Below, in pieces: positions 1,681-58,639 of a stretch of 64,000 bases of DNA (position 1 is its first letter; the number at the start of each line of letters is the position of its first letter). The translations under genes and the position numbers were made by a program. The notes beneath the pieces were generated by a model, which saw only the letters and a list, made by a program, of their open reading frames with translations, did not search any database and was not told where the DNA came from. The stretch is taken from the NCBI RefSeq assembly GCF_032854445.1, contig NC_088307.1, positions 3,412,001-3,476,000 on the forward strand. The letters are read 5' to 3'. This stretch comes from Liolophura sinensis (taxonomy: Eukaryota > Mollusca > Polyplacophora > Chitonida > Chitonidae).

Positions 1681-1848
1681 CTCTCCTGCCGAAACAACTG
1701 TAAAGTTAGGACACTGGTATGACCCACAGAACTCTGGCCTGCCTGTCACTTCCCGTCTCCGAAACAATCGGTCAATGATACTCCCAGAGCTTACTGGGAG
1801 GCAGATCAGACACAGCAACACAGCCAACTTACACACACCCATCATCAT
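1681..1848 (-). CDS. SOUL/heme-binding-like secreted protein, coding exon 1 (partial gene)
   Basis: Three consecutive ATGs open a 56-codon exon: signal peptide (VCKLAVLLCLICLPVSS, residues 5-21), a tribasic FRRRE site, then PEFCGSYQCPNFTVVSAGE. The pattern C-x4-C-P-x-[YF]-x-V-[VL] is the entry to secreted SOUL (HEBP2-like) domains and aligns with FCREFDCPPFEVLERGE in the larger gene at 29484-36101. It stops at the same residue with a phase-0 donor (GAG|GTGAGA) at 1681. A 3' splice-site-like CAG sits 5 nt before the ATG, suggesting a 5' UTR intron. The gene runs leftward; exon 2 is not found in 1-1680 (mostly satellite), so it lies outside the window or is lost. The family call is by motif only. 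Confidence 0.7.
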
Positions 1849-8240: not shown

Positions 8241-8244
8241 TTAA

Positions 8245-8512
8245 AGACGTACAGCACAGAGAGTAAGACCAGGGCAACCGGTGAAACGCGACACCTTGTC
8301 AATTTACTTCAGTCGAGGTTTTATTCTAACTGTTCATGTCAATGCCTAAATAGCAACAACTTACACGTCCCCTAGCACCATGACTTAGGCAGAATTAAGT
8401 AAAAAAAACTCAGTGCAGTGATGTTAATTACAATTTATTAGAAGTAACTCGTCTAGAATTACTCAAAACCCTGTGTTGTCATCACATTTAACATACAATC
8501 ACAGGCAGTTCT
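8245..8512 (+). repeat. Dispersed repeat B, near full length
   Basis: One of the best copies: head 'tacagcacagagagtaagac', then 'ggttttattctaactgttca', 'cccctagcaccatgacttag', 'cagtgatgttaattacaatt' and the end 'cacatttaacatacaatcac'. It is useful as a reference for the other copies. Confidence 0.85.
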
Positions 8513-9707
8513 ATTTTATATGCATATACAATTAAGAATTTCGTAACACTAAAATGACTACGTCCTCCTGCACTTAACCGGTAGACTTGCAGGAGTTAAA
8601 TTCTCTAAGCTTGTGGTAAATTTTTTTCATTGAGTTAAATTTCAAAATCCGCCAGACATTGCCGGTTGCAGAGTGACATGTTGGTTGCTATAAAACTGAA
8701 CATGGACATTTGTGGACAATCTCGTGTCATATAGACTCCTCTGTTCTGACATCTCGTTGAGCAGTAATAGGGGACGAGTTCAAATAACAATTTAAGATAC
8801 TAAACAAAAACAAGAAATGGAAGTAAAAATCCAGAATGGAATAAATAGACTTTATAGTCACGTACACAAAACATTTAAATCAAAATGATACAATTATACA
8901 GGTATGTAAAAGTGTACAGGGCTCGTCCGAATTTCTGACTATCTTTGATCAAATAACTGAAAATCCCGAAATCATCGGTGACTTGATGGTTTTTGCCAAC
9001 AGCGTCTTGCCGTTCAAATTACCTAAAAGCTCTGCGTGCATATGTCCATAATATATGTGTGTTAACACCTGAATGTCTTCCAAGCTACCAGTTGATATAC
9101 GCGTTGTGCTTATAATCGTCATCTGCGTGTTTAGTTTTGTCACTCTAATATTTCCCAGTCAAGAAAACCTCACACACATGCTAAAAGAGGACATGTTTTC
9201 TTTGGTCTAGTTTGTGATCATTGTTTTGGTCAAATGCGAAAGACATTAATGTCATGGTTATGAAATTTATATGGTGGGCAATTACAGACGGTCCCTATAA
9301 CACCAGGCGATTTGTAAGCCCATTGTTGTTCGTCGATGTTATGACTCATCCCACATCTCGACTTTAGTAACTGCGAGCTTACCTTGATCAGACATATCTG
9401 TGTCACTGTGACTGGTAAACACTGAGTCTGGAAAGGTCAAAAGGCATGAAAGTGCACTCAGTGTAATAAGACTGAGCCCTGCACAGCCTGGCTTAGGCCC
9501 GCAAAAATATTGCTGTCGTCTGTGATAATTTGCATCTAATTAAAAAATTATATGAAATACTAATCAGCAAACTTGAGTTGTAAAGACCTTGATCATAGCT
9601 GTGTTGGTTAGCACGTATTTAGGGAGTAGTTTGAAAACTCTAAGAAACTAAGAAACAATATCTGTCTTCTGTTCATGCTAGCTTTCTGCTTTTTACATCC
9701 CATTTGC

Positions 9708-13437: not shown

Positions 13438-13909
13438 TCAGACAAACACTATGAAAGAAATATTGCAGTCACAATTCTTTCCGACAAAATTGGGAATTTG
13501 TAAATCCCTCCTCCCACACCTGTCCATTTTCCCGAATGCTGAAGGATAAAGACCGGGTGCTGTTTCACTGACGCTTGGAGCAGACGACTGTTCAATGACG
13601 ACGCTTCTCGATGAAGTCACGCGAGATCTCCTGGCCTTTCTCACAGGACAGTTCCGAACGAAGCTCTTCCGGGCTTGTTCGGAACAACTCAGACTTGCGT
13701 TTGAGTGTAGTCGTGTACACTGTGACGTATCTGTCAGATCGTTTTCTGGGACTATTTCCAATGACATTTGACTATCTTTGATGGAGGTAGTGAAGCGGCG
13801 GCGGAGGATTTCACTATGGCGTCTCTTCAATAGCACAGCACTTGTGCTGTTTGGTTTTTGAGATCCGCTCATCTCATTATACCAAGATTCCAGTAACTGT
13901 TTGGCAGAA
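13438..13909 (-). CDS. Copy 1, exon 2
   Basis: Follows TTTATTTCTTTCAG, a strong acceptor. It opens SAKQLLESWYNEM and stops at 13438. The KRRHSEILRR block is identical to copy 2 for ten residues. Confidence 0.72.
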
Positions 13910-14681
13910 CTGAAAGAAATAAATAGGTTTAAATTGTTTTCAGACATTCTTTGTATTATTTCTGTTGGTATATTAATTTATTGTAAAAAAGGACCCCACA
14001 CCAAATGCCCAACGTCTTCTTTTCCAAACCTTTAATGTGTTACAGATACACGTATACGTAACTTGTGCACATAACTTTTATGCAAATCGGCACAAATCGG
14101 CAGTCAAATAAATAAATAACTCTATTGAAGACAGTATGTTTTTCACTTGAACATTGCTGTGAATCAGAATTGGTTATCGCTAGTATGGCTGACGTTTGTC
14201 AGCTACTTCAGCAGATCTGACTGTGCTGCTCGACCTTCATATCAGTTGAGCCAACACAAAACACAAACATAAATGCACAAGCATAAAATTTATTTACAGC
14301 CACAGTACAAATCATTTGTGATTCAACGTTTTTCTTCAAAATTAAAAATTGGAAAAGATATTACAGACTTCACTTTAGCGATTATAAGTGTAATAGGTTC
14401 AACCACGACATGTTCATTTACCTGAATTTTCGCAGACTTTTTTCAGCCATAGAGAATTCTATGTCTTCCACGGTTGACTTGGTGATAGCCGTTTGTGGTT
14501 TAGGTTTTTGGGGCACTGGTGGTGGAGGGCCAGGTGGACTAATGAAAACCCTAGAGGACTCACAGCACCCTACAAACGATGGCTCTGTAACACCTTTCCT
14601 TGGAGTGCTCGTTCTGAAATCACCCTCAAAGGGATCAGTGTGAGATAGGCTCACATCGGATAAATCTAACAGCTCAACCAT
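13438..14681 (-). CDS. Unrecognised two-exon gene family, copy 1 (243 aa)
   Basis: Exons 14681-14422 and 13909-13438 join in frame (260+472 nt, 243 residues plus stop) across a 512-bp phase-2 intron with CAG|GTAAAT donor and TTTCAG acceptor. Start: ATG of MVELLDLSDVSLSHTDP, conserved in copy 2. Exon 1 holds TSTPRK (S/T-P-x-K/R site) and PPGPPPPVPQKPKPQTAITK. Exon 2 holds AVLLKRRHSEILRRRFTTS and SFVRNCPVRKARRSR, basic and possibly nuclear-targeting. There is no signal peptide, no membrane segment and no domain I can name. The Pro-rich motif is of SH3/WW-ligand type; the S-P sites resemble proline-directed kinase sites (inference). The C-terminus from about residue 205 reads through sequence that is 3' UTR in copy 2. 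Confidence 0.72.
14422..14681 (-). CDS. Copy 1, exon 1
   Basis: Encodes MVELLDLSDVSL through EKSLRKF and ends two bases into an AGT serine codon at CAG|GTAAAT. The junction phase is the same in all three family members. Confidence 0.72.
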
Positions 14682-15830
14682 GGTTGTGGTCAAATCCAAG
14701 ATGTGATCAGTAAGCCGAGAAATGGTGAAAGTACGGAGAAATGGAACTCTGTTTGGTTAAATAGTAGTGGACCCAGCATGCCGCCCTGTCACGCCCCATC
14801 ACTGGTCTACCCAGCTTTACCCCTATTCCTGTGCCAAGGTGTTCAGGTTAAACCCTCGGCGTCCATTGATGTCTACACAATGACACGCCAGCCCTAACGA
14901 GGTGATTAACAAAGTTGTCATTATTAACAATGATTTCTGACGATTTTTGCCTCTGTCCTAAGATTCAAACATACTGTTGATCAGAGGATTAAAAAGTACC
15001 CCCAGAACAACAGGCCATTAATCTTACACCCCCTCTCACAGCAGGCACCCTCCCTCCCCCCCCCCCCCCCCCCACCACCACGCTCATTTCTTACACTGTG
15101 CTAAAAAACAGATCTCTAGACACTAATCCCGGGTGTTTAAGTCATCTAACAACCCCTTGTTGGATTTTACAAGCACTACTCATTAAAAGTAATACGGCCT
15201 TTCTTTCCTGCTACCAAGGATTTAATTTTTACTGAATTCTACTTTCTCCGCCTACCAACAGGACATAAGCAGAATGGAAATTATAATCTGTCTCCACTAC
15301 TTTTGACCAATATCTCGTTAAACACATCATAAGTATTATGCTCATATATAATATTCCACTTCTCCTTTTGTTTTCTTAGTAACTAAAGTTGTTTTATTGC
15401 CACACATTATTCTCATATTCTTACAGCTATTTATACCCTTGTAAAATACCAATATAGAAGAGAAAACAAAGTTTTAAAAGTTGCAAAAAGCAGAGAAAAT
15501 CTTACATATATTGTATATTGCGGCATTATCTGACACAAAAAAATCCCAGAAACAATACATGTTCTTTTTCCACAAGTATAGAGGAGAATAAAAATCCGAT
15601 TAGTTGCCAAGACATTAATTCTACTGCGGTGCAGATTTCCGTTGTTATAGTGATGTAGGAGAGGAAGGAGGACCGTGTTAAGGCGGGGTGACGCGAGCCC
15701 AGCACGGGTGTCAAAATTGGCGTCCCGGCGGGTCATATGTTATAACGGTTGTTTGAATTAATGCCAATTTACGATGTGTATACAAACATGACACGTAACA
15801 AGCTTGGTTCAAACATGATCAATTTATTGA
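14682..15830 (-). promoter_or_regulatory. Upstream region of copy 1, duplicated with the gene
   Basis: Non-coding, but alignable to the region upstream of copy 2 (19458-20650) in several blocks: 'ctctgtttggttaaatagta' (14748/19524), 'ggattttacaagcactactc' (15163/19925), and 'cgtaacaagcttggttcaaa' (about 15795/20619). The blocks could simply be left from the duplication or could be promoter elements. A (C)n run sits at about 15054-15073. Confidence 0.5.
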
Positions 15831-18492: not shown

Positions 18493-18868
18493 CTATTCTA
18501 GGCGCAACTGATTTGATGTGTTTTCTTTGACGCTTGAATCAGACGTCGTTTTCCTAACGACGTTTCTTAACGAAGTCAATCGAGATCTTCTGGCTTTCCT
18601 GGTAGGACTGTTTCGAAAGAAAGTTTGTCGCGACATCTCGGAAGAATTCTGACTAGTGGGTGAACAGGTTCTGGTGCACTGATGCAGATTTGTCAGATCG
18701 TTTTCGGAAACTATATTCAATGACCTTTGATCCGCTTTGATTGAGGTAGTGAAACAGCGGCGGAGGATTTCACTATGGCGTCTCTTCAGTAACACAGCAC
18801 TTTTGGTGATTGGCGTTTTAGGCCCGTTAATCTCGTGAGTCCAGCACCTCAGCAACTCTCTAGCGGAA
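18493..18868 (-). CDS. Copy 2, exon 2
   Basis: Acceptor TTTGTTTTCAG; begins SARELLRCWTHEI and ends at TAG at 18493. Confidence 0.75.
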
Positions 18869-19457
18869 CTGAAAACAAATTAAAGCAGAGGATTAGAATC
18901 ACTAGATTTTCATTTGTGTTACATAGGCGTAATGTGCACTGGTAAATTTGCTTGACGAAATACCAGTGTCACATTCATCAATAGCTGTCATGAAAGTTAA
19001 ATTTTATTGACTTTTGTGTAAAGCACAAATAAAATAAGTAATGTGGTAAATACAGTGAGTCAGTGACCAAAGTTTACAAGTTTAACAAATTATATTATGG
19101 GAAATTCAGCGCTCAGCCACACACTGAAAAATGACATTGTATATTCACTGTAAAAACTTCCGACATAGTCCTTTTTTCTTCAATAATTTACCTGATCTTT
19201 CGCAAATTTTTATCAGCCACACAGAATCCACTGTCTTCCGCGGTAGACTTGGTGACAGCCGTTTGTGGCTTTGGTGTTTTGGGCAATGGTGGTGGAGAGC
19301 TGGACAGTCTGATTGAAACACCAGAAACATTCGGACGCTCCTTAAACGGTGGCTCCGTAACATCTCTACGAGGGGTGCTCGTTCTGAAACTGTATGTACT
19401 CTCAGAGGGATCAGTCTGAGACAGGCTTGCATCGGACAAATCCAACAGTTCTACCAT
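18493..19457 (-). CDS. Unrecognised two-exon gene family, copy 2 (213 aa)
   Basis: Exons 19457-19192 and 18868-18493 join in frame (266+376 nt, 213 residues plus stop); the 323-bp intron is in the same phase as in copy 1. Start MVELLDLSDASLSQTDP matches copy 1. Exon 1 has RTSTPRRDVTEPP and SSSPPPLPKTPKPQTAVTK; exon 2 has SARELLRCW, SAVLLKRRHSEILRRCFTTS, SENDLT and FFRNSPTRKARRSRLTS, ending NQLRLE. Conservation is confined to these blocks with freer linkers between, as expected of a short, largely disordered protein under selection. A plus-strand TTTATT at 18176 would give an AATAAA signal about 315 nt past the stop. Function unknown. Confidence 0.75.
19192..19457 (-). CDS. Copy 2, exon 1
   Basis: Runs from ATG to CAG|GTAAAT; phase-2 end. 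Its upstream flank aligns with that of copy 1. Confidence 0.75.
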
Positions 19458-20889
19458 GATTGCGGTCGAGTCCAAGATGTGATCAGAAAGCCAAGAAATT
19501 GTGAAAGTGCAGAGAAACGGAGCTCTGTTTGGTTAAATAGTAGTGGACTCAGCATGACACCCTGTCAGAGCGCATGAGGGTGGTCTACCCAGCTTCACCT
19601 CTCGTTTCCGCGCCACAATGTATGAGTCCCCCTCAGCGTCCACGGGTGTCTACACAATGACATGGCAAGCCATAACGAGGTGAAAAACTACGGCCATGAT
19701 TTCTGTCGAACTTGTTCTCTGTTCTGATTTTTAAACGACCTACTGACCATTTTAAAGAGGATTAAAACGGACCTTCAAATCCCGTTGGGGCGCTAATCTC
19801 ATACCATCTCATGCAGTAGGATATCTTCTTTGTTCCTGGCTCTTAAACCATAGGAGACAGAACTTAAACATATCCACACAGACACTAATACCAGGTGTTT
19901 AGGTCATCCAACAACCCATTGCAGGATTTTACAAGCACTACTCATTAAAATTGGTCAGCCCTTTCTTTCCGACAACCAGAAGTTTTACCGTAATCTCCGC
20001 CTACTGAAAAGCGAACAGAAAGGAGAGGGAAAAGGAAATAGCACTATTAATTTGATAGGCTGAACTCACCAAAAGAGTTGTGCTGTAACTTCAAAGTGGA
20101 AAGAAAAACTAAACAGAAAAAAACATTTTGTTCACAGTTTATTGAATTATTATTCATGTCGTTGTAAATCTGAGCTGAATTAATGCGTTTATGTCGCTTG
20201 TACAAATGGTAATTAACCGAGGTGTTACATGAATCAATAGACTTCACATAATTTCCATGAGACTTTTAATCATTAAAACCTTTGAATAAAAAATATCTTG
20301 ATATTTCCATGCATTAAGACCAGCAAGATATTTGTAGGCTATGCTCATGAAACATGTCGCTCATGCCCAGTCTTCGCTTTTATAGAAGAATTTATTGCGC
20401 TTCTCTGAAATGCAACTCCAATAAATCAAACATATTGAGTCACTGATTGAGTGCTGACAAGAATTCCCCACAGTGATATGGGATAGCGGGACCGTATTAA
20501 GACAGCCTGACGCGATCCCAGCCCAGATGTCATGTCTGGCATCCCGGGTGTCACATCACAATAGTTGTTATAAGGGTAGTTTGGATGAATGTCAGTTTGT
20601 GTGTATACAAACACGGCACGTAACAAGCTTGGTTCAAACATGATTTGAAATTTATAAGGTCATTTTCTATATTTAATAACTCTAGGGACATTTAGAGGTC
20701 GGTGTGAATTTGAAATCATCTTGGATTGGTATGATATCAATTCTAACCTTTCTGTACTGGATGTTTAATGTTGTGGCGCACTGGGGGATAAAAGTGCAAA
20801 TTTATGACAGAAAGGACGCAGAAGTATTTATTTAGACCACATCTATACACCTCGTCTAGCATTTCCGTATGCACCTATTGGGAATTTGT

Positions 20890-24822: not shown

Positions 24823-26607
24823 GTAAGCATTTTCTTTGCTGTTAACGTACCATTCTGAACTTGAGTATGTTATATTACCCACACCCAAATAACTAATTTG
24901 TTAAATTTAACATAATGTGGTGATTTCTGAGTGATACTAAAATGGATTATGTTGATGCAACGTAATATCATGTCATTATATAGACCACGCATATACCCCA
25001 TTACATCAACAAAACTATTCTGTCTGAAAAGCAGAGCTAACATGATATGCTGGTAACATTAACCTAATTTATTCTGCCATCGCTCAGAAAACATAGGATA
25101 TTGTCAATTTAACATATAATCTTTTAAGCGTAATTGCATTTTATTTGAGTCATTCGACCAACAGTAATTGAAAAACCACCCGCTTGAGACATTCCATCAA
25201 TGCCTGGTGCCAAGCATCCCCGAGGCCTGATCCCTTTCCGCTGCTTTCATTCTGTAAGACCTGTCGGGATTTGGAAGTCAAGTGACCACCCTTTCGTGTC
25301 TAAAACAAAATGGCCGCCCAGTGTTAGAGAATTGGGGAAAAGGTCACATTTTGTCACTTCGCTAGCGACCAGTAACGCCTAGTTTTACAAAATAGCGTCA
25401 CGAAAGCTCTGCAGAAATACTCAGACTATCTGGAAAGCTGAAAATTATACAAATCCAACGGTTACAAGATCGGTGACAGCGATTCAAAAATAGACATTTT
25501 CCTATGCAATAACTTTGGGAGGACGATTTTCTCCTCCCACGCCGTTTGTTACTAAGATCACGTGGTCTCTAGCTTCTGACACGTCTTACAGAATGTTATT
25601 ATTCATTGCATGTGATGACAACACAGTATTTTGAGTCATTGTAGGATGAAGCCTGATAAATCAAGTAAAACTATTGCATTCCATTTTTCCTAATTCTGCT
25701 TTTGCTGCTATTCAGGCATTTGCATGAGCTCTTAGAATATAACCCTAATTGCCGTAAATTGACTACAGCCCGTATTTCACCAGTTACGTGTGACCATTTG
25801 CCAAATATCACACTGGCACACCTGCTCTGGTTTTACTCTTTACGTTGTAAGTCTTTTATATGGCTTATATATTAAGCTGAGGTTGTATAACGAATATACC
25901 AGTAAAAGTCTTGTAGACAAGTCAGGATACAACGTTCGAAACTCCAGTGTTTTCTTCGTGAGACCTATGGTTTAGGTTACAAACATGTGGATGACTTCGT
26001 CACGATGTTTACACTACCAACTGCCGTTAATAGTCAGTTTAAACATGTATGATGAAAACGTAAAGAGTGATAGACCGGGAGAGGCTCTACAGTGTATCAT
26101 GTCGATGGGCGTTAATTATGCTTTTAATCACTGCATGGATTTGTTTTTAAACTCACATTTTATTTTGTGTGCAGACCCAAGACTGTTCATCGTGGCCTCA
26201 CTCCCACCAGGCCAACAGGTAGCATAGGGAATCCCCCGTCCGGAAACCGCCGAATCTGCCGACGTCACACCGAGAAACACAAGTGGAAACTTACGGAACT
26301 ACCGGAAGTGCTAAACCGCCGATGTCAAGAAGAGCTAAGAATGGACTCGTCATTTTTATCTACGACTGCTGATTCTAGATCCTGCCTGAGTGACTCTCCT
26401 AGTTCTGTGTTTATTCGAAACAGCCCGGTTCGGAGAGCTACACGACGCGTGTCTCGCGAGATTATGACATCCAACACGACAAAAACTATTCCAAGGCTCG
26501 ATGAGCACCTTACTATCCACAGTTATCCGCAAGACGGAGATAGGGGGAGACAAAAACAACGTGGGCAACGACTGACCAGACTCTTTCAGCGGATAATGCT
26601 GGTCTAA
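24548..26607 (+). CDS. Unrecognised two-exon gene family, copy 3 (about 235 aa)
   Basis: Exons 24548-24822 and 26175-26607 join in frame (275+433 nt) across a 1352-bp phase-2 intron (CCAAG|GTAAGC, TTTTGTGTGCAG), the same phase and position as in copies 1 and 2. The diagnostic blocks are present: RGPPPPLPTTPKPKTAVTRE before the intron; RRHTEKHKWKLTELPEVL and SSVFIRNSPVRRATRRVSRE after it. The N-terminus before the Pro motif does not align with the paralogs, so the start at 24548 is uncertain; later in-frame ATGs (24716) or an upstream exon are possible, since CTGTGCAG at 24553 looks like an acceptor. Opposite strand to copies 1 and 2. Function unknown. Confidence 0.6.
25600..25870 (-). repeat. 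Dispersed repeat B inside the copy 3 intron
   Basis: In reverse it shows the standard order; plus-strand markers are 'gatgacaacacagtattttg', 'cctaattctgcttttgctgc', 'ttgcatgagctcttagaata' and 'ctctggttttactctttacg'. Confidence 0.75.
26175..26607 (+). CDS. Copy 3, exon 2
   Basis: Follows a T-rich tract and GTGTGCAG. It opens PKTVHRGLTPTRPTG, carries FIRNSPVRRATRR and ends QRIMLV. Confidence 0.62.
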
Positions 26608-29115: not shown

Positions 29116-29483
29116 CATCTTCCCACAGTGTACAAACGTTATTTATGTATATATTTGATTAGTATATAACTTTAGTAGGTAAATAACAGCCCTGCTGACT
29201 TAGATTTCCTGCAGAACCAGAGAGAGCTGGGTTGGAACCAGCAACCTCAGTGGCCAAGGGCTGATTGACTTCGATGAGAGGTTTAATTTGATTAGAAATC
29301 TTCGTCTAGTTTATCGCAACAATCCCGAATATCTAGTCTTGTTTGTAACTACTTTATATTCGTTACTAAATTACAACCAGACTTAGTTTGATTTACAAAA
29401 TAAAATTTTATTCAACACTCGACATATTCTCACGACTTCATATACTTTACAATCTGTTCTGGTTTCTTGTTAATGGACATCTT

Positions 29484-30432
29484 TCAAAAAATATTAATCC
29501 CTGGGCGAATCTTGAACCTGTACGTAGATGGTATGTTGTTTTGTTGATTTAGGCGAGTGTTTGAGTCAGGTGAACGATTAGTGTTGTTATCCACGGCGTT
29601 AGGTTGATGATCTGGTCTGCCATCTCCAAGACTGGCCTGACTTCCTGAGTTGGTACCATCCGGCGAGGCATCAGTTTTAGGAACAGTGCCACCGTTGCCC
29701 GTCAACCAAGCCGGAGGGGCGGTGTAGTTAGTCTTTATCCAGGGAGGAGGGGTAGAGAAGTTACCCCTGAGCCAAGACGGAGGGGACACGTATTTCCGCT
29801 TTACCCAGGGAGGCGGAGAGGAATAGTTACTCCTTAACCAAGGCGGTGGTACGTCAAAATTGCCAACCATCCAAGGCGGAGGGGTGTTGCTGTTACCCGA
29901 TCCCGCAGGGTGGCTGGGTGTACTGGTGCTTGCACCGCCACGAGGCCTAGGTTCGTTGGGTGAGTTACCTCCCTTATCCGGCTGGGCTGTCGAAGAGCTA
30001 TGAGCTGAACCTGATGCATTGGACGCTGTGCTATTCGCTGACTTCGGTCTCCGTCGTCCTAATGGTCCTCCTCTATAGTAACCGAAGACCTTGTCGCCGT
30101 ATTTCTGATAAGCTTCGGCCAGTTCCGGCGGCATCTGACTGATGTCTGGAATGATCGGGCCGGAGGACGCATGATCGGGCGGCATGCGCTGTGCGCTTGG
30201 AATACCGAACGAGTCGCGTTCTCTTGCCATGGCCTTAATCCAAACCTTTTCTTCTGCGAGGAACTTAGATACCAGCCATACTTCGTTATACCGCTGACGA
30301 AATTTGAACATGGTGTCGTACCCGGCAGTTATGGTGACGTTCGAGAGGTACGTTGCGTTTGGCCCTAACTCTGCCTTTAAGGCGTCGAATTCTTTCTCAA
30401 ACTGTTTGTCTGACAGGTAACCAAATACAGGC
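29484..30432 (-). CDS. SOUL gene, coding exon 4 and C-terminal arm
   Basis: Acceptor TTTATTTCTAG; encodes the last SOUL strands (AGYDTMFKFRQRYNEVWLV) and then about 260 residues that are Ser/Asn/Pro-rich with the PPPW repeats, ending RFKIRPGINIF. Many N-x-[ST] sequons are present. An AATAAA (plus-strand TTTATT at 29407-29412) lies about 72 nt past the stop. Confidence 0.87.
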
Positions 30433-33400
30433 CTAGAAATAAACACAGGATATAGAATCAAACATGATGACTATGGCTTTATAGTGATTGCTGGTGGTTA
30501 TATTTAAAACGATGACGGCAATAACTATTCCGTGTCGATCAAGTAGGTTGATGACGCTTATTACAGCGAGTACGACGATGATGCAGTGACTATGACAATG
30601 ACGAAGATTTATATGATAATAACGGTAAATACTACGACGATATGATAACGATGTTAACGACTACAGCTATGATGGTAATGACTATGACTATGACAAAGAC
30701 AATAACGCAAATGACAGCGATGATAATGGTAATGTCTAATAGGATGACCGTGATGACTACGATAATATAAATGACATTCATGATGGCAATGACTAAGGCG
30801 ATGACTGTAATGACAAGGGTAATATTAACTTATACCGTAGGACTTAGTGTGCAACTAAACGTCAAAACAGACATTCGTATACCAGCCGTGAGAAAAAAAG
30901 AACGTTCAAGGTCAACAGAAGGTGTATATGAGTAGAAAGATGTTTTGGAAGACAACATCTGATTGAATAATGGAGGAAGACACCGTCTGATTGCATAATG
31001 AAGGAAGACACCATCTGATTGCATAATGGAGGAAGACACCATCTGATTGAATTATGGAGGAAGACACCATCTGGTTATGTATTGGAAGACGCCATCTGAT
31101 TGCATAATGGAGGAAGACGCCATCTGATTACATAATGAGGAAAACAACATCTGATTGCACAATGGAGGAAGACACCGTCTGATTGCATAATGAAGGAAGA
31201 CACCATCTGATTGTTTAATGGAGGAAGACACCATCTGATTGAATTATGGAGGAAGACACCATCTGGTTATGTATTGGAAGACGCCATCTGATTGCATAAT
31301 GGAGCAAGACACCATCTGATTACATAATGGAGGAAGACGACATCTGATTGCATAATGGAGCAAGACACCATCTGACTATTTATTGGAAGACACCATCTGA
31401 TTGCATAAAGGAGGAAGACACCATCTGATTGCATAATGGAGGAAGACGACATCTGATTGCATAATGGAGGAAGACACCATCTGATTGCATAAAGGAGGAA
31501 GACACCATCTGATTGCATAATGGAGGAAGACACCATCTGACCGTTTATTGGAAGACACCATCTGATTGTATAATGGAGGAGGACACCATCTGATTGAATA
31601 ATGGAGGAAGACACCATCTGATTTTTTATTGGAAGACTTCATCTGATTGCATAATGGATGAAGGCACTATCTGACTATGTACTGGAAGACATCATCTGAT
31701 GGCATAATGGAGGAAGACACCATCTGATTGTATAATGGAGGAAGACGACATCTGATTGCATAATGGAGGAAGACACCATCTGACTTTTTATTTTGGAAGA
31801 CACCATCTGATTGCATAAAGGAGGTAGACACGTTATTTTTAAAATCTCACCTGGATGATACCATTGTTCGTAACATGACGTTTGTTACCTTTGTTTTATC
31901 GAGTTCGTTTTTCTTTCCGGTTCAAGTGTTTTCTTTCCGGTTCAAGTGTTTTTTCCAGTTCGTGTTTCTTACCTGACATAGACTTCCATTGCGGGCATTC
32001 TAACAATCCGAATTTGGCTAGAGGTCGGAAGGGGAGGTTGTTTTTGACGCAGGTAAGGTAGGAGAAACATAATGGTCCGATTCGTGGGGGAAGTCTTTCG
32101 CGTCAAGACTGGCACGGTAAATGGCATTCTGAGATCTGTAACAGAAAGCAACGTGGAACCAAGAAACAGGTAATTCTCGACAAGTGGCATTTGATATATT
32201 ACAATTGCATCACTACATACTTTTTTACCTAATTTTGCTTAAGCCATGGTGCTAGGGGCGTGTAGTATGTTACTTTGTAAACATTCACATGAGCAGTTAG
32301 AATAAAAATTGTAATTGACAAGCCGCAAGTATGGAGAGGTGTCCTCACCGGAAGCTCACGAATATGTTCACCAAAGCTTAAATATCTAGTACATAATGTA
32401 AAGGATTACAGCATGGGGAACAAATCCAGAGCAGCGACAAGAGTGTTGCAGTTTGCAAATGCTCAGACTTATGTCTATCTTCGGTCAGAATTGTGTTTAA
32501 CTTTTTATGTTAATACCCAAATAGAAGCAACTTACAATACCCCTGGCACAATCGATAAAACCCATTTAGTTTTAAAAAATAATAAAAACACAGCACTGAT
32601 GTTGATTGCAATGACTGGGATTTCCATACGTCAAATACTAATACCTATCTAGTCATGAATAAAATGCATTCAAGCCCAACAATATCAGCTAATTAACTTT
32701 TGAAATTTTGACTCTGGTTATCTTACGGACATGATGGTCCTAGTATATATAGAATGCTCAAAGAGATTGTTATTTCTGATTAATTTATTTATTTTATGCA
32801 GTCTTTTAAATAGGTGCCTGAGTTGGGGTCTTGACGTTAGTTTATTTAAAGCGCTTACATAATCCCAACGTGGCAAATAATCACTTACTTTGGTAGCAAT
32901 TAGTCAATCCATCATTTTTAAAAAAAAATTTTGAAGGTGTTTTTGAGCGATGAGTGAAGGTTAATTGCGTATTTTAGTATATATTCGTATATGACTGGGC
33001 GATCTCCAAAGTGATTAGTCAAAGTTTATTAAAAACTAATCTTCATTATAATGTGTATTTTATTATCATACGCATACGTGTAGTTCAACATAGTCTGTGG
33101 TTCATTATAACACGTAGTTCATCATAGTGTGTGGTTCATTACAACGCGTAGTTCATCGTAATCTGTGGTTCATTGTAACTCGTAGTTCATCATAGTATGT
33201 GGTTCATTTTAACGCGTAGCTCATTATAATGACTAGTTCAAAAAGGTGGCAAAAGTTTAGATTGGGATACATTTGTCTCTTTAGACTCTTTAAACAAATT
33301 TAATCCGTGGGGCTGATAAATATTTTTTTCAGACTATCAGTCATGGAATTATCCAAAACTGACTTAAAAGGACCTCAAGAGGAAGCTTACCAGTAACTTG

Positions 33401-36101
33401 CCAAACATGGTGGTTTTTTTTGGGGGTTTTTTTTGCCACACTTAAAACTGACCACAATTGTATAAGCGAAAAAAAAATTAATTGTGACGTTAAGTGAATG
33501 AATGGACTAATGAGTGAATGAATCAATTTATCAACTGATGGACCAATCAATCGATCAATCAATCGAATATGAAATCAAGGTGTTTTCTGTTCCTGATCAT
33601 ACTCGATCTTGTGACTTACTTTCTGTGTTTCTGCCCTGCAAAATGTAGTCTGCCACAGCCCAGAAGGTAAGGATCTTGGCGTAAGGCCGCTTGGAGATGT
33701 CAGCCGCTGCATAGGTCAAGAAGGAGTAGCGCCGGAGCTCATAGTTCTGATTGAATATTATAGACATTTAAATTAATTAGTATAATATCATTTGAGAAAC
33801 ACATTGTGTATGACACAAAGAAAATAAACTGGCATAATATAAAAGACCACAGCATAGAGAGTAAAACCAGGGCGCTGGCGACAGCCTGATAGACGTACAG
33901 CATAGAGAGTAAAACCAGCTCGGTGGCGACAGCCTATAGACTTACAGCATAGAGAGTAAAACCAGCATGGTGGGGACAGCGTGATAGACGTACAGCAGAG
34001 AGAATAAAACCAGGGCGCTGGCGACAGTATGATAGACGTACAGCATAGAGAGTAAAACCAGGGCGGTGGTGACAGTGTGATAGACGTACAGCATAGAGAG
34101 TAAAACCAGGGCGGTGGCGACAGTGTGATAGACGTACTGCATAGGGAGTAAAACCAGGGCGGTGGCGACAGCGTGATAGACGTACAGCATAGAGCGTAAA
34201 ACCAGGGCGGTGGCAACAACGTGATAGACGGGCAGCATAGAGAGTAATACCAGGGCGGTGGCGACAGCGTGATAGTTGGCATATGGTCACGTATTACCGG
34301 TGAAATCTGGCCTCGTGCCAAGTTACGTCTGTCAAGGTTTCTTTTTCGACTGTTTATGTATATGCTTGAAGAGTGGCAACGTATAACCCACTGGCAACAT
34401 CGCTCAAGTAGAATTAGGTAACAGAAATTCAGTGATGTTAGTTGCAATTTAATAGATGTCAAAATGATTTGTTGTCATCACGTTTAATATACAATCACAT
34501 TAAAAGAATGGAAAGGGACAGCTGGACAACAGTACTAATGGTACAGGCTGCAGTATACAATTTTCAAGCAAATCTGGGAGAGGAAATGGTGTTTCTATTA
34601 TTATCAAATGTGATCTCAAGTCTTTTGGTTCATGAAGATAATATTCCATATCTGTATGCGATAGCTGTATCTAAGAGAGCAGAGATCATCCTCTATGCAA
34701 ATTTAGTTGCCAACATTGTAAGAAAAGTCCACAGTCTAGTTTAGAAGTACATCAAAGACTTGTTATTCCTTGTTAGAAGGTGGGTCAGGTCGTTTGAAAG
34801 GTACGTATCGAGAAGAAAATATTCACAAATGATGATCGGGCCAACTCGTTTACAGTATTTAGGTGAAGGGAGATAACCAAGATGCCATATTGCCTATCAA
34901 GTGTATGCTCGCAAAATAAAATAGTTACCTCCCCTCTTTCGAGCACCTCGAAAGGCGGGCAATCGAATTCCCTACAAAACAAAGGTTTTGGCTTGATTTC
35001 TTCTTGGGGTGGCGCACGACTAAGCGGACCTCGCATGCTTCCTATGTATCCCTGAACCATGTTGCTGAGGTATGTCTCAATACTAGTTGCCACATGAGGG
35101 GGTAAGACGTTTGGGGCCTCACCCACGAGCCCAGGGGATCCACTCACAGCGCCCAAAGATCCATTCGTTGGTGAACCCGCAATTCCCGGGGGCACTTCCG
35201 CACCCTCTGGAGGTATACCCGTACCTCCCGGGGGTACACGGCCGGCTCCTAAAGAGCTGCCCATGACTATCGGCATCGCTACCATCATCCCGTCCAATCT
35301 GATGGGCCGCCCGTTGGCATCAAACATGGAGGGGAATCCGGACAGAGGGTTGTTTGATGGTGGTTGCGAGCCAGTGCTGTTATCTGAAGTACCTTGACTT
35401 TTGTTGGTCATGGAGGAATTATCTCTTCCCATCGCGACTGAACCATTTTCTTGTTGTTGTTCTATTGGCACTAATCCACCTGCGTTACCAGGGACTACTT
35501 TTAAAGGTCGGAGGAGGTATGGTAGCACAACCATCTGCCGGCGACGGCCATAATACGGTGTACCAATGCCACCACCTCTGGCAACTCCTCCGTAAGGATT
35601 TCTTGATGCACCCTGGTAAGGAGTGCCCACCCCAGGGGACAAGACTTCAGGGCTCATCAGAGTGCTCTGTCCCTCCGAGGTGCCATTACTATCTTGTCCT
35701 CTAAACATGGGCGATATCATCGAGAACATGTCTTGCATCTGTTCAAACGGTGACGGCATTCCGCCACCAGGCAAGAGACCGCCTCCTGTATCATTTCCAG
35801 CCTGAGTCGAGTTGCTACGCGGTCCCATTCCGAACATGTTGCCGAAATTTCCGAACATGCCGGCTGCACCGGAGCTGCTATCGTTTGAAGAGGGCATGCC
35901 GGGCATCCCCTGAAACACTCCACTAAGCGACTCCGAGATCTTAGCGAACACTGAACTCATGAATTCCGGACTCATGGGGTCCGTCCGTGCACCTTGCCCT
36001 GATCCATCACCGGATGTCCCGTTACCAGGTTGCTCCACGGCTTGCTGGCAGACAGTCAGACCGACACACAGACATACGGCAACCCAACCGACACTCCTCA
36101 T
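29484..36101 (-). CDS. Secreted SOUL/heme-binding-domain protein with low-complexity arms (803 aa, 4 coding exons)
   Basis: Exons 36101-34929, 33746-33620, 32135-31973 and 30432-29484 join in frame (1173+127+163+949 nt = 803 codons plus stop) with intron phases 0, 1 and 2 and canonical GT-AG ends. Residues 1-19 are a signal peptide (MRSVGWVAVCLCVGLTVCQ). Residues 20-370 are Gly/Asn/Ser/Met/Pro-rich. The SOUL domain spans about 371-545: FCREFDCPPFEVLE, NYELRRY, ISKRPYAKILTFWAVADYI, MPFTVPVLTR, FLLPYLRQKQPPLPT, MPAMEVYVRPVFGYLSD, ITAGYDTMFKFRQRYNEVWL. SOUL proteins bind heme/porphyrin weakly; here the domain is extracellular. Residues 672-734 are six 11-residue PPPW-x-x-x-[NK]-[YF] repeats. The usual family length is about 200 residues, so the arms are exceptional. 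ATG 36101 is preferred over 36122, since TTTTCTGTCTCGCAG (an acceptor) lies between them. Confidence 0.85.
30490..30830. repeat. Degenerate GAY/ATGAC simple repeat in a SOUL intron
   Basis: Imprecise trinucleotide-like iterations of 'gatgac', 'aatgac' and 'tatgac', probably a decayed simple repeat. Confidence 0.8.
30940..31832. repeat. 28-bp minisatellite, about 30 copies, in a SOUL intron
   Basis: The unit ATAATGGAGGAAGACACCAT plus CTGATTGC repeats through intron 3 (between exons 3 and 4). Some units are 26 bp, where GGAGG is lost ('tattggaagac'). Repetitive open frames over it are artefacts. Confidence 0.95.
31973..32135 (-). CDS. SOUL gene, coding exon 3
   Basis: Acceptor TTTCTGTTACAG; encodes LRMPFTVPVLTRKTSP through MPAMEVYV; donor AG|GTAAGA, phase 2. 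It corresponds to the family's I-x-MTxPV ... FxxP core. Confidence 0.88.
32200..32340 (-). repeat. Dispersed repeat B fragment
   Basis: Plus-strand markers 'cctaattttgcttaagccat', 'ggtgctaggggcgtg' and 'ttcacatgagcagttagaat' are the reversed middle of repeat B. Confidence 0.75.
32395..32665 (+). repeat. Dispersed repeat B, in a SOUL intron
   Basis: 'attacagcatggggaacaaa', 'agcaacttacaatacccctg', 'cagcactgatgttgattgca'. It lies in opposite orientation to the 32200-32340 copy. Confidence 0.7.
33078..33236. repeat. 34-bp minisatellite, about 4.5 copies
   Basis: 'gtagttcatcatagtgtgtg' plus 'gttcattacaacgc' repeats with moderate divergence. It lies in the intron between SOUL exons 2 and 3. Confidence 0.88.
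33620..33746 (-). CDS. SOUL gene, coding exon 2
   Basis: Acceptor CAATCAG; encodes NYELRRYSFLTYAAADISKR and on to YILQGRNTE; donor A|GTAAGT, phase 1. NYELRRY is the family's YE[VL]R-x-Y signature. Confidence 0.88.
33841..34276 (+). repeat. 48-bp tandem array grown from the head of repeat B, about 9 copies
   Basis: The unit 'tacagcatagagagtaaaac' ... 'cagggcggtggcgacagcgt' repeats every 48 bp. The final unit continues into an ordinary repeat B body (34277-34505), so the array is an internal amplification of that element's 5' end. All minus-strand frames stay open because 48 is a multiple of three. Confidence 0.9.
34277..34505 (+). repeat. Dispersed repeat B body following the 48-bp array
   Basis: 'gttggcatatggtcacgtat', 'ggtgaaatctggcctcgtgc', 'cagtgatgttagttgcaatt' and 'cacgtttaatatacaatcac' occur in the normal order. 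Confidence 0.85.
34929..36101 (-). CDS. SOUL gene, coding exon 1
   Basis: Signal peptide plus about 350 residues of low-complexity sequence, including SSVFAKISESLSGVFQGM, GMFGNFGNMFGMG, a YGRRRQMVVLPYLLRPLKVV basic-hydrophobic stretch and Gly/Pro segments. It then enters the SOUL domain at PKPLFCREFDCPPFEVLERGE. Donor GAG|GTAACT, phase 0. Confidence 0.85.
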
Positions 36102-37304
36102 TTCCTGCGAGACAGAAAACATGCATTGACTGACTGATTGATTGATGGAATTTGTCCTTAATTAATCACACCACTTTGCTGACCAAACCGCTTTCTTCAA
36201 AACTGATTGAATCATTCATTTTCGAAAAGCGGATAAGTGGGAGGGGTACTTCCGAAAACCAGGAAGTACAGAGCTTTGTTATTTGATTTATTTTCGTATT
36301 TATTTATAAAAATTCAATATTTTTTTTATAATATATTCCATGATTCATTCATGTGTCGTGAATGAGGTTTGTAGATCTCGCACACCAGGTATATTCAGGC
36401 TGAGTGAGACCACCGCCCCGCCATTAATGCCAGATAAACTCTATAGCGCAGACCCGTAACCAATCCAATTAAGATCTGGTTTCTCATTAAACTCCACAAC
36501 GCGGCCTACGCTCACTGTGTATTACTACCACAACTGTCATGTTTCAAAAAGATATACTGAACAACTGTAAGGTCGTAGAAGATAGTGTAATATTCTAGAT
36601 TACAGTGTAAAACACCAATTAAATAAATAAAATAAATAATCAGGAACCGGAAAACTTCTGTGTGCATGTCATGCTTTCTCCCTCTTCTGCTCTAACCAAA
36701 GTTCACTCACTTTAGGGGAATGTTGTTAAGGTATTTTTTAAACACGAGATAGCGCGAGGTTTCGGGGGACTACAATTCAAGTGAACATTTGAGAAATGTC
36801 AGATGAATGCTGAGTACAAAATCCCTCGACGTTATAGACGATTAAACAACAACACAATAAAAAGAACACAAAAGTACTCTGACAAACGTTTTCAGTGTAC
36901 TTGATCAACATTATAAAGTGATCTTATTATCAGTTGTGGGATGAACATGTTTAAGTATTAAACATGTTACAATTAAACATTAAGCACGTTTATTATCGGT
37001 TGCAAAGAGGTGTTTAAATTTTAAACACTTGTTTTTTTTCTGTACTCTGAATGTAACAACAGTTTGCACAACATACACAGCACAGCGATAAGCTTTTAGC
37101 TATCTGACAAAACAAACACAACAAAACAAGTATGAACAGTTTAACTGTTTTCACTGTTGTAAATTTTGTTTAGGCAATATTGTAATAATAAAGTAGTAAG
37201 AGACTGTCAAACGACAAAAACGTTTCTCTAGCTGGCGTTAGCATCCAACTTTCAAACCTGCATATAATACATTTAAGTGAACAAACAAGGATAAAATAAC
37301 TCAC

Positions 37305-45466: not shown

Positions 45467-46189
45467 TCATTGACGTCGCCTGGGTCGTCGCCTTCTTTGC
45501 ACGGGTCGTCGTCTTCTCTGTCCTTCGTCGCCACCGTCGTTGCCCGGCCTCGGTCGCCTTCTCCTCTGGCCTTCATCGCCGCCATCATTACTAGGTCTCT
45601 GGCGGACTCGCTTCCTGAGACCGCCTTCCACATCCACCACGGACTGCAGCCCTCCTCTTCCATTCGGCCTTAACTCCACTTCCTTTTCGTAATCCGGCGG
45701 CCTCGGTCCGGTACGTGCCGGCTGAGGGCCCTTTGCATCCACTTCTACAATCTCATTGAGTAATGCCGCCTGTATGGCACCCTGTGCACCACCCCCTCCA
45801 CCGCCACCACCACCACCACCTATTCCGAGCAAAGTCCCTAAAACGTCCAGAACACTGGATCCTCCACCTTTGCCACCACCTGATCCACCACCGCCACTAC
45901 CAGAACCAGCCGTTCTTCCAGAACCACCCTTGCCCCCTGTGGAAGCCGTTCCTCCAGAACCACCCGTTCCACCTGAGGCAGCCGTTCCATTCGCCGAGGT
46001 AGTTGCAGCCGTTGTGGTTGTCGCTGCTGCTGGGACAGCAATCGGCCCGAGGGTTACACCATCAGGTAACTCCAATTCGAGAAGGTCGGGATTCAGACCT
46101 GTGCCTGCCGCATTGGCTATCTGGCTTATCCCGGGAGGTATCCAGCACACCGTAAGCGTCATAAACACCAACAACCTGGATGTCCCCAT
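45467..46189 (-). CDS. Secreted Gly-rich protein with Arg-rich tail (240 aa)
   Basis: A single open exon from MGTSRLLVFMTLTVCWIPPG (signal peptide, likely cleaved after ISQ22). Residues 51-68 are Ala/Thr-rich and 72-110 Gly/Ser-rich; SSVLDVLGTLLGI (111-123) is hydrophobic and followed by eleven glycines. AIQAALLNEIVEVDAKG (138-154) may be helical. The tail 190-240 is strongly basic with two copies of NDGGDEGQRRRRP. An acceptor-like TTATTATCAAACAG ends 4 nt before the ATG, implying an untranslated first exon. AATAAA lies about 184 nt past the stop (plus-strand TTTATT at 45278). No domain is recognised. The mixed Gly-rich, acidic/basic layout is like extracellular matrix or biomineralisation proteins; that role is inferred. 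Confidence 0.72.
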   Translation of the reverse strand: MGTSRLLVFMTLTVCWIPPGISQIANAAGTGLNPDLLELELPDGVTLGPIAVPAAATTTTAATTSANGTAASGGTGGSGGTASTGGKGGSGRTAGSGSGGGGSGGGKGGGSSVLDVLGTLLGIGGGGGGGGGGGAQGAIQAALLNEIVEVDAKGPQPARTGPRPPDYEKEVELRPNGRGGLQSVVDVEGGLRKRVRQRPSNDGGDEGQRRRRPRPGNDGGDEGQRRRRPVQRRRRPRRRQ

Positions 46190-53949: not shown

Positions 53950-54972
53950 CTAGACCCATCCACCGGCCATGGCGCCTCCCCTGTTCATCCCGGTACCTGG
54001 TACCCACATCCCCTGACTAGGTAACCCGTAACTGAACGCGTTGAGCCCTGCATGTGTTCCTGCTCCTAGCTCCCGCTCTATTTCCGTTGGTTGCTGCGCC
54101 GTGTTCGCTACACCTGTTCCAGCAGCGTTCATTACCGGTTCGATATCTAATAATTGCTGGACAACGGGGTCCATTGCCATGCCCGCACCTCCACCGTAGT
54201 GCCCGCCAGGAACTCCACCAAAGGGATAGCCACCGCCGTTAACATGATAGGGATAACCACCACCACTGGGAGAATAATGGTATGCACCGGCGCTGGGAGG
54301 ATAGTGGTAACCACCGGCGCTAGGAGGATAAGGGTAACCCCCACCGCTTGCTCCATGAAGAGGAGAGCCTCCGCCAAGAACAGAATGCGGGGCACCACCG
54401 CTTACGGCAGGATCGGTGGAACCAGCGCCCCCTCCTTGAGTTCTACTAATGCGTGCGCGTGTAGAACCAGGGCCCACACCTGCGCCAGGAGTACGACGGC
54501 CTGCACCTGTTCTTGAAGGACTTCGGCCTACACCTGTGGCTGATGCATCACGTCCTGTACCAGCGCTTGGCAGTCCCGAACCAACACCTGCCCCCGCTGA
54601 ACCTGCGCCTGCTGTCGGACGACTGTATCGGGCATCTAGACCAGGAGGAGCCTGATTGTGATACCCTGTATGTGCTCCGACCCTGTCCGGATAATGTCGT
54701 GGAGGGCCGTAGCTCTGAACCGGCACATATATCACCTGGTAGCCAGGAGGAGGCATCGCCCCGCTGTATGGGCCCCAACCACCTGCTGTTCCATAGCCTG
54801 TCATGCCCATTCCGATCCCTGCGCCGCCTGCCGCCACTTCTGGCGTCTCTACTTCCACAGCTTCCGCCGCTGGCGCCGCTCTACCAGCTGCAGGGTTGTG
54901 AAGCACCATTGATAGGCTGGTTATGCACTGACAGGATAACAGGAATACGATACTCGGGCTGAAGACCACCAT
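53950..54972 (-). CDS. Secreted Tyr/Gly/Pro-rich protein (340 aa)
   Basis: A single exon opening MVVFSPSIVFLLSCQCITSL (signal peptide, residues 1-20), with an acceptor-like TATATTCAACAG 2 nt before the ATG. Residues 28-46 are Ala/Glu-rich. Residues 47-108 hold Gly/Met/Tyr stretches (GYQVIYVPVQSYGP). Residues 119-180 are GAG-type Gly/Ala/Arg repeats. Residues 209-262 form a 9-10-residue tandem repeat of the type GGYHYPPSA. The C-terminus (266-340) is less repetitive, with DPVVQQLLDIEPV and GLNAFSYGLPSQGMWVPG. Y-rich Gly/Pro repeats are common in structural secreted proteins (silks, adhesives, ligament and shell matrix); I know no exact family. Possible Tyr cross-linking is inference. GC-rich coding contrasts with AT-rich flanks. 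Confidence 0.75.
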   Translation of the reverse strand: MVVFSPSIVFLLSCQCITSLSMVLHNPAAGRAAPAAEAVEVETPEVAAGGAGIGMGMTGYGTAGGWGPYSGAMPPPGYQVIYVPVQSYGPPRHYPDRVGAHTGYHNQAPPGLDARYSRPTAGAGSAGAGVGSGLPSAGTGRDASATGVGRSPSRTGAGRRTPGAGVGPGSTRARISRTQGGGAGSTDPAVSGGAPHSVLGGGSPLHGASGGGYPYPPSAGGYHYPPSAGAYHYSPSGGGYPYHVNGGGYPFGGVPGGHYGGGAGMAMDPVVQQLLDIEPVMNAAGTGVANTAQQPTEIERELGAGTHAGLNAFSYGLPSQGMWVPGTGMNRGGAMAGGWV

Positions 54973-56224: not shown

Positions 56225-56285
56225 TACATTTTTTTAGTGTAACGTGAAATTAAAATCAAATAAATAAATAAATAAGTAAATAAAT
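56225..56285 (+). mobile_element. SINE tail fragment
   Basis: 'gtgtaacgtgaaattaaaat' followed by (AAATAAATAAGT)n. Only the 3' end of a SINE-like element. Confidence 0.5.
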
Positions 56286-56399
56286 AAACCAGTCAGAATT
56301 CTCGACAATTGACTTATCGCACTACACTGAACATTGGACTTACCATCCCTCTTATTTCAAACCGAGGATCGTATTTGTTAAAAAGAAATCTGTATATTT

Positions 56400-57112
56400 T
56401 AGCATCACTAACATGACGTCAGAGTACATAGAACGAAATAATTTTAACATCACTAACATGACGTCAGAGTACATAGAACGAAATAATTCTAACATCACTA
56501 ACATGACGTCAGAGTACATAGAACGAAATAACTCTAACATCACTAACATGACGTCAGAGTACATAGAACGAAATAATTCTAACATCACTAACATGACGCC
56601 AGAGTACATAGAACGAAAAAATTCTAACATCACTAACATGACGTCAGAGTATATAGAACGAAATAATTCTAACATCACTAACATGGCGTCAGAGTACATA
56701 GAACGAAATAATTCTAACATCACTAACATGACGACAGAGTACATAGAACGAAATAACTCTAACATCACTAACATGACGTCAGAGTACATAGAACGAAATA
56801 ATTCTAACATCACTAACAGGACATCAGAGTACATAGAACGAAATAACTCTAACATCACTAACATGACGTCAGAGTATATAGAACGAAATAATTCTAACAT
56901 CACTAACATGACGTCAGAGTACATAGAACGAAATAACTCTAACATCACTAACATGGCGTCAGAGTACATAGAACGAAATAATTCTAACATCACTAACATG
57001 ACGTCAGAGTACATAGAACAAAATAATTCTAACATCACTAACATGACGTCAGAGTACATAGAACGAAATAATTCTAACATCACTAACATGACGTCCGAGT
57101 ATATAGAATGAA
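56400..57112. repeat. 45-bp minisatellite, about 16 copies
   Basis: 'atgacgtcagagtacataga' plus 'acgaaataattctaacatcactaac' (given in parts) repeats at a strict 45 bp. Plus-strand unit peptide MTSEYIERNNSNITN (with N-x-[ST] sequons); minus-strand unit MLVMLELFRSMYSDV. Both strands are open for more than 230 codons only because 45 is a multiple of three. Confidence 0.95.
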
Positions 57113-57129
57113 ATATATGATAGCTTTGT

Positions 57130-57262
57130 AATTTTATTTATTTATTTGATTGCTGCTTAACTCGATACTCAAGAGCTCATACTTATACGATGAGGTTCAG
57201 TTTACGGATGGAGGACATCAATGTCTGGCGTAAACCACCGACATTTGGCAAGATACTGGGGA
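57130..57262 (-). mobile_element. SINE-A-related variant
   Basis: 'tttatttatttgattgctgc', 'tactcaagagctcatactta', 'cagtttacggatggaggaca', 'aaaccaccgacatttggcaa'. Same variant body as 27785-27960. Confidence 0.65.
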
Positions 57263-58444: not shown

Positions 58445-58612
58445 ATTTATTTATTTTATTTATTTGATTGGTGTTTTACGCCGTACTCAAGAATAAGTCA
58501 ATTACATGACCATTCCACTTGCGGTTGGAGAGAAATCCAAAATCAGCTGAACTTGAACTCACAGCGACTGCATTGGTGGGAGTTTCCTTGGTCATTGCGC
58601 TCTTATTGATAA
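58445..58612 (-). mobile_element. SINE-A, internally deleted
   Basis: 'tttatttgattggtgtttta', 'cgccgtactcaagaataagt', 'tgaacttgaactcacagcga', 'ctgcattggtgggagtttcc'. The central CCCGGG part is missing. Confidence 0.88.
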
Positions 58613-58639
58613 ATGATTGATTGGCTCTTTATTGTTTCA

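Follow-up and report, generated by a model that had tools for sequence, protein, structure and literature searches.

A window of 64,000 nucleotides from the chiton Liolophura sinensis (Mollusca; Polyplacophora; Chitonida; Chitonidae), covering positions 3,412,001 to 3,476,000 of the forward strand of contig NC_088307.1 in NCBI RefSeq assembly GCF_032854445.1, contains a SOUL gene on its minus strand. This gene is referred to here as gene C, its paralogues in the surrounding array as genes A, B, D, E, and F, and the contig as C13. Four minus-strand exons of gene C join into 803 codons and a stop without a single internal stop, through junctions that are all GT-AG and introns in phases 0/1/2 (Table 1). 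The original prediction, which was made from the nucleotide letters and a list of open reading frames without database searches, had placed the junctions at 34929/33746, 33620/32135, and 31973/30432, and these reproduce the stop-free product of 803 residues. The contig also carries A, B, D, and F, whose introns are in identical phases; this places the junctions of gene C beyond chance, and the predicted structure is almost certainly correct. Genes C, D, E, and F have a splice-acceptor-like CAG whose end lies 3 nt upstream of the ATG; in genes A and B the sequence is TTTCAG and its end lies 13 nt upstream. These acceptor-like sites suggest an intron in the 5′ untranslated region of gene C and its paralogues, and they support the start codon as chosen. 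The putative signal peptide of protein C was called by eye together with a simple hydropathy filter.

The joined exons match the Pfam SOUL profile (PF04832) over its full length, as the original prediction had anticipated, with 104.5 bits and an E-value of 8.6e-30 against a cut-off of 27 bits. The match covers residues 380-541 of the protein and positions 2-172 of the 173 in the profile, within a conserved domain that begins at Cys376 and finishes near residue 545. A search of the PDB listed 26 sequences at E ≤ 1, among which nine distinct sequences at E 7.1e-12 to 3.5e-9 are all HEBP1 or HEBP2, while the other 17 lie at E 0.14 or worse. HEBP2 (PDB 5gqq) is found at E 7.1e-12 and HEBP1 at E 3e-9. 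SOUL/HEBP proteins are usually small and consist of one globular domain, though this is not a requirement. Protein C differs from the family in its 803 residues, in looking secreted, in carrying arms on both sides of the domain, and in having a domain without histidine.

Gene C is one of a series of tandem copies. With PF04832, 13 exon matches were obtained in the genome at E ≤ 0.001, distributed over contigs C3, C7, and C13, and a search with the domain of protein C itself added two further loci on C13. The stretch of C13 from 3.39 to 3.56 Mb carries six SOUL genes, each of them on the minus strand, in the coordinate order A, B, C, E, F, D, and two others, K3 on C3 and K7 on C7, lie outside the array. 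The intron phases 0/1/2 recur in all five modelled array genes (A, B, C, D, and F). Genes A and B each have coding exons of 168/127/163/172 nt, encoding 209 residues without arms. Gene D (249/124/163/268 nt, 267 residues) and gene F (219/130/148/301 nt, 265 residues) have short arms, and gene C (1173/127/163/949 nt, 803 residues) has long ones. The inner exons are thus near-constant in size and the outer ones larger, and the long arms of protein C are confined to exons 1 and 4. The description of a SOUL domain built into a larger protein is better worded as arms that probably grew within the two outer exons of a duplicate of an otherwise ordinary gene for a secreted SOUL protein.

A Cx4C pair at the start of the domain is common to K7 and all five modelled proteins of the array, whereas K3 lacks both this pair and, by eye, a hydrophobic leader. 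In addition, the loop after the MTxPV motif is about six residues shorter in C and in A, B, D, and F than in K3 and K7. Protein C is 42% identical to A and 39% to B (180 columns), 27.5% to D (193 columns), and 31.7% to F (189 columns). A midpoint-rooted tree of seven proteins, with two of its four inner branches starred, does not settle the order of C relative to A+B and D+F. Gene E is a near copy of F, but its exon 2 (L006, about 5200-5327, minus strand) lacks one base by comparison, which breaks the frame, and gene E may be a pseudogene or an assembly error. For this reason it was excluded from the tree and from the protein and sequon counts, and only its exons 1 and 4 entered a comparison with F. 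As a separate observation in gene B, the 3′ end of exon 2 recurs with its donor in the following intron (L002, about 8000-9300), where KYTVRGYNS can be read at four extra places and the open frames are offset by 71 bases.

Table 1. Gene C, its protein features, and neighbouring genes; positions are those of the window unless another reference is named.
Feature	Position	Strand	Basis or remark
Coding exon 1 of gene C: signal peptide, N-terminal arm, and SOUL start (aa 1-391), phase 0 donor	34929..36101	-	donor position common to A, B, D, F
Coding exon 2, 127 nt, SOUL domain	33620..33746	-	exon join and paralogue comparison
Coding exon 3, 163 nt, SOUL domain	31973..32135	-	exon join and paralogue comparison
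Coding exon 4: SOUL end, C-terminal arm, and stop	29484..30432	-	exon join and paralogue comparison
Pfam SOUL domain, aa 380-541, across introns	30273..34964	-	Pfam profile match
Cys376 and Cys381, Cx4C pair	34959..34976	-	kept in A, B, D, F, K7 and the exon 1 frame of E
Putative signal peptide, about aa 1-19	36045..36101	-	by eye; paralogues share hydrophobic leaders at the start
N-terminal arm, Gly 17.5, Ser 12.4, Pro 11.3%	34986..36044	-	composition counted over aa 19-372
C-terminal arm, aa 546-803, Pro/Ser/Gly/Asn-rich	29487..30260	-	composition
Six 11-residue repeats PP[PSA]W[MLVI]xxN[FY]xx, aa 672-737	29685..29882	-	sequence
AG of putative splice-acceptor-like site, 3 nt 5′ of the gene C ATG	36105..36106	-	sequence; spacing shared with D, E, F
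AATAAA polyadenylation signal, about 70 nt past the gene C stop	29407..29412	-	sequence
Gene B exon 1: signal peptide and short linker, no arm	1681..1848	-	remaining exons left of the window (L002)
N1, secreted-looking, 240 aa, Gly 24%, Arg-rich end	45467..46189	-	leader flagged by hydropathy filter
N2, 340 aa, Gly 22, Ala 13, Pro 11%, Tyr repeats	53950..54972	-	moderately hydrophobic start
N3, Gly 38, Ala 25%	C13:3483864, outside the window (L009 7295-7864)	-	leader flagged by hydropathy filter

Both arms of protein C look coding, as seen in the absence of stops, the excess of sequons, and the synonymous bias of the repeats. The reading frame is free of stops over 373 codons of exon 1, counted without the initial 18, and over 315 codons of exon 4, stretches that include the SOUL parts of these exons, against dinucleotide-shuffle means of 14.1 and 11.8. 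None of 2000 shuffles reached zero for either exon, and the other two frames contain 16 and 21 stops in exon 1 and 9 and 22 in exon 4. The mature protein has 20 N-X-S/T sequons where 6.7 are expected from its composition, a count equalled in 0 of 5000 shuffles. The N-terminal arm (residues 19-372) accounts for 10 of these against 2.8 expected (0 of 5000 shuffles), the C-terminal arm for 7 against 3.2 (p 0.028), and the SOUL domain for 3 against 0.8 (p 0.029). No such excess was found in A, B, D, F, or the three neighbouring genes N1-N3 (p 0.27 to 1.0). The six PPPW repeat units of the C-terminal arm, the third of which has K in place of N and the sixth G in place of F/Y, differ at proportions of synonymous (pS) and nonsynonymous (pN) sites of 0.66 and 0.33 over all columns and of 0.56 and 0.07 over the PPPW columns. 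Their divergence is thus mostly at synonymous sites, in a test of moderate strength given six short units. No copy of the N-terminal arm was found elsewhere in the genome, where the next match lies at E 0.53, so this arm is single-copy. The PPPW stretch matches 61 other genomic places at E 7.2e-6 or worse with 20-45% identity, and neither arm has a PDB match at E ≤ 1.

Two other ideas were set aside. Derivation from the neighbouring genes was not borne out by BLASTP of C against N1-N3, in which the best match (E 0.052) falls within the signal peptide. GRRR is a pattern of amidated peptide precursors and occurs once per arm, at residues 185-188 and 613-616, but with only two such sites flanking a globular domain in a chain of 803 residues, the case for a precursor is weak; they may be protease sites. 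The introns of gene C carry repeats of their own. Intron 1 holds a 48-nt minisatellite of 8.9 copies (33849-34275), the units of which have CCACCGCCYTGGTT in common with one PPPW codon run of the C-terminal arm. With at most one mismatch this sequence has eight matches in the window, seven of them inside the intron 1 array, which may reflect chance or seeding. Intron 3 holds a 28-nt minisatellite of 32 copies (30947-31831).

The shell proteome of Perna viridis lists Unigene33532, with a signal peptide at residues 1-18, a SOUL domain (PF04832), and a count of 2, taken as peptides (PMC6641155). It resembles protein C in having a signal peptide and a SOUL domain. The Nautilus pompilius shell proteome lists contig_13424, with a HEBP2-like BLAST name at 3e-8 (PMC8700984); here the likeness is by name only, the word SOUL being absent from the main text. 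From these two listings, a secreted SOUL protein in a mollusc shell is already known. Of the traits of shell matrix proteins, low-complexity or repetitive regions, which are common though not required, are present in protein C, and the hydrophobic leader and the sequon excess would fit secretion. The chiton radula protein RTMP1 resembles C in plan only, with a signal sequence, a Gly/Ser-rich disordered part, and a Trp/Phe-rich part, and it differs in its 539 residues, its His-rich end, and the reported lack of similarity to known proteins, with no SOUL domain reported for it (PMC6351634). In the part of the open-licence literature that was covered, no description of a SOUL core with long arms was found, and no papers matched SOUL domain with shell matrix, SOUL domain with signal peptide, or chiton heme-binding protein.

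We propose, with a probability of about 0.5, that protein C is a secreted, probably heavily N-glycosylated extracellular matrix protein with a SOUL core, and that it arose within a tandem array through lengthening of the outer exons of its gene. The observations at hand are the gene structure, the SOUL homology, the tandem paralogy, the graded arm lengths, the sequon excess, the repeat divergence, and the nearby Gly-rich genes, and from them we infer the matrix role and the tissue. One of the tandem copies of an ordinary gene for a secreted SOUL protein would have retained the folded SOUL core while gaining two long low-complexity arms by growth within its two outer exons. After secretion, the Gly/Ser stretches and sugars of the arms, together with Trp and Phe/Tyr residues at regular intervals, would anchor the protein in a hydrated organic matrix, most likely that of the shell plate, the girdle cuticle, or the spicule sheath. 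The SOUL core would serve as a folded node and may bind a hydrophobic ligand or a partner. The prediction of a SOUL protein that looks secreted and carries two low-complexity arms is supported, and its source is a shelled mollusc. Its suggested adaptation to a matrix or shell is plausible in view of the Perna and Nautilus proteins, while the heme half of the suggestion is weak.

Several points weigh against a matrix role. The arms, with 20 K+R and 24 D+E in the N-terminal and 28 K+R and 18 D+E in the C-terminal arm, are not acidic, unlike many mineral-binding proteins. A simple charge-hydropathy rule, which is crude for Gly-rich chains, assigns the N-terminal arm and the whole protein as folded and only the C-terminal arm as disordered. 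In the short exon 1 arm of genes E and F, pN (0.037) is close to pS (0.041) over 4 differences, which gives no sign of constraint there. SOUL or HEBP names occur in 0 of the 22 proteins given as specific to the mineralised cusp of the radula of Cryptochiton, another chiton species (PMC6351634), and neither word appears in the main text of two papers on Crepidula shell proteins. The leader of N2 is not flagged by the hydropathy filter. Finally, membership of N1-N3 and C in one matrix programme is putative, as is any shared regulation.

The alternative, a heme or porphyrin protein, takes up the role suggested by the original prediction, a suggestion that rests on the family name. According to this account, protein C is an extracellular carrier or scavenger, with arms that solubilise or anchor it and a pocket that binds a tetrapyrrole without histidine. 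SOUL homology is clear, and HEBP1 binds heme without an axial histidine, so heme binding by C may still occur. Globins, peroxidasins, and ferroxidase are also reported from the mineralised cusp of chiton teeth (PMC6351634). Against this stands the domain itself, which contains no histidine between residues 376 and 545; the five histidines of protein C all lie outside it, and a heme ligand within the arms was set aside. In the alignment to human HEBP2 a single histidine (IRHY) stands opposite an arginine (LRRY) of C, and it is the putative counterpart of His42 of mouse SOUL. His42 is the reported heme ligand of the mouse protein (PMC6321638). If the two histidines correspond, protein C lacks the axial histidine, which is a mark of the HEBP2 branch only. 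The residue at this putative ligand position is Gln in A and B, Arg in C, D, and F, Lys in K7, and His in K3, and thus His in only one of the seven modelled SOUL genes, the one in which a hydrophobic leader is absent by eye; in gene F, a histidine lies two places before it. The carrying of a ligand would also leave the long arms and their repeats unexplained. Heme-binding passages of two further papers are silent on SOUL (PMC8334855; PMC8270824). Heme binding through the known SOUL histidine would not be expected in protein C, and heme or porphyrin handling in general is a weak prediction, diminished by the domain without histidine, the arginine at the likely ligand position, and the absence of SOUL/HEBP names from the radula cusp list. 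Overall, the carrier or scavenger is unlikely.

It is also improbable that protein C is a glycosylated, low-complexity secreted protein of mucus, egg coat, or immunity that acts outside mineralised tissue. The sequon excess, the apparent secretion, and the local array of secreted duplicates would suit such a role, and a tomato heme-binding protein 2 is described as antimicrobial in the title of one paper (PMC10663603). However, a SOUL or HEBP2-like protein is listed in two mollusc shell proteomes. Still less probable is that the arms are drifting, functionless low-complexity growth on a protein that works like A and B. The variation of arms among the paralogues, the near equality of pN and pS between E and F, and the lack of PDB matches for the arms of C favour drift, but the sequon excess, the synonymous bias of the C-terminal repeats (in the moderate test above), and zero stops across the 688 codons of exons 1 and 4 speak against it. 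A false join, with exon 1 standing alone as a one-exon gene, is very improbable. Its frame does continue 47 codons beyond the donor, and the donor GTAACT is not of the strongest form, but A, B, D, and F have a phase 0 donor at the homologous place, and the end of the exon carries the start of the domain including Cx4C.

Genes N1-N3 lie between C and E in the orientation of both and apparently consist of a single exon each. A splice-acceptor-like CAG stands 2-4 nt upstream of the ATG in all of them, none has a Pfam match at E ≤ 0.1, and all three are read as encoding secreted proteins. A tentative proposal, possible rather than probable, is that a heme-pocket protein became a scaffold within an array where SOUL genes are interspersed with Gly-rich genes of apparently secreted products, in that a copy without the ligand histidine grew two glycosylated repeat arms while intermediates with none, short, or long arms were kept. 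Proteins of shell and skeletal matrices often seem to be of no visible origin, and an array on one contig suggests a route by which a small secreted globular gene is copied, its core kept, and its outer exons lengthened. The stages of the array can be compared gene by gene, and heme binding by the SOUL pocket can be tested with the single domain. Such a route could explain why shell proteomes contain HEBP2-like names for which no heme role is apparent.

Other features of the window and the genome were also observed. On contig C8, eight matches to PF14830, which we take to be a mollusc-specific haemocyanin domain, stand in one row, against 0 in 14 control genomes. Frames that look transposon-like by eye lie on C13 at about 3490600-3494900, 3500500-3502600, and 3527000-3532000 (L010, L011, and L013); some are reverse-transcriptase-like, and L013 has a large frame that resembles a DNA-transposon polymerase. 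Repeated frames of an unknown gene family occur in the window at 13441-14756, 18496-19532, and 26128-26604, with motifs like NSPVRKARRSR and FTISxLxDHILD, and no Pfam match at E ≤ 0.1 was found for four frames tested. Long minisatellites that are open as frames lie at 56284-57137 and 58606-62818, with the units SNITNMTSEYIERNN and YVTPQTDRSQ, and the one at 58606-62818 sits at the strongest base skew.

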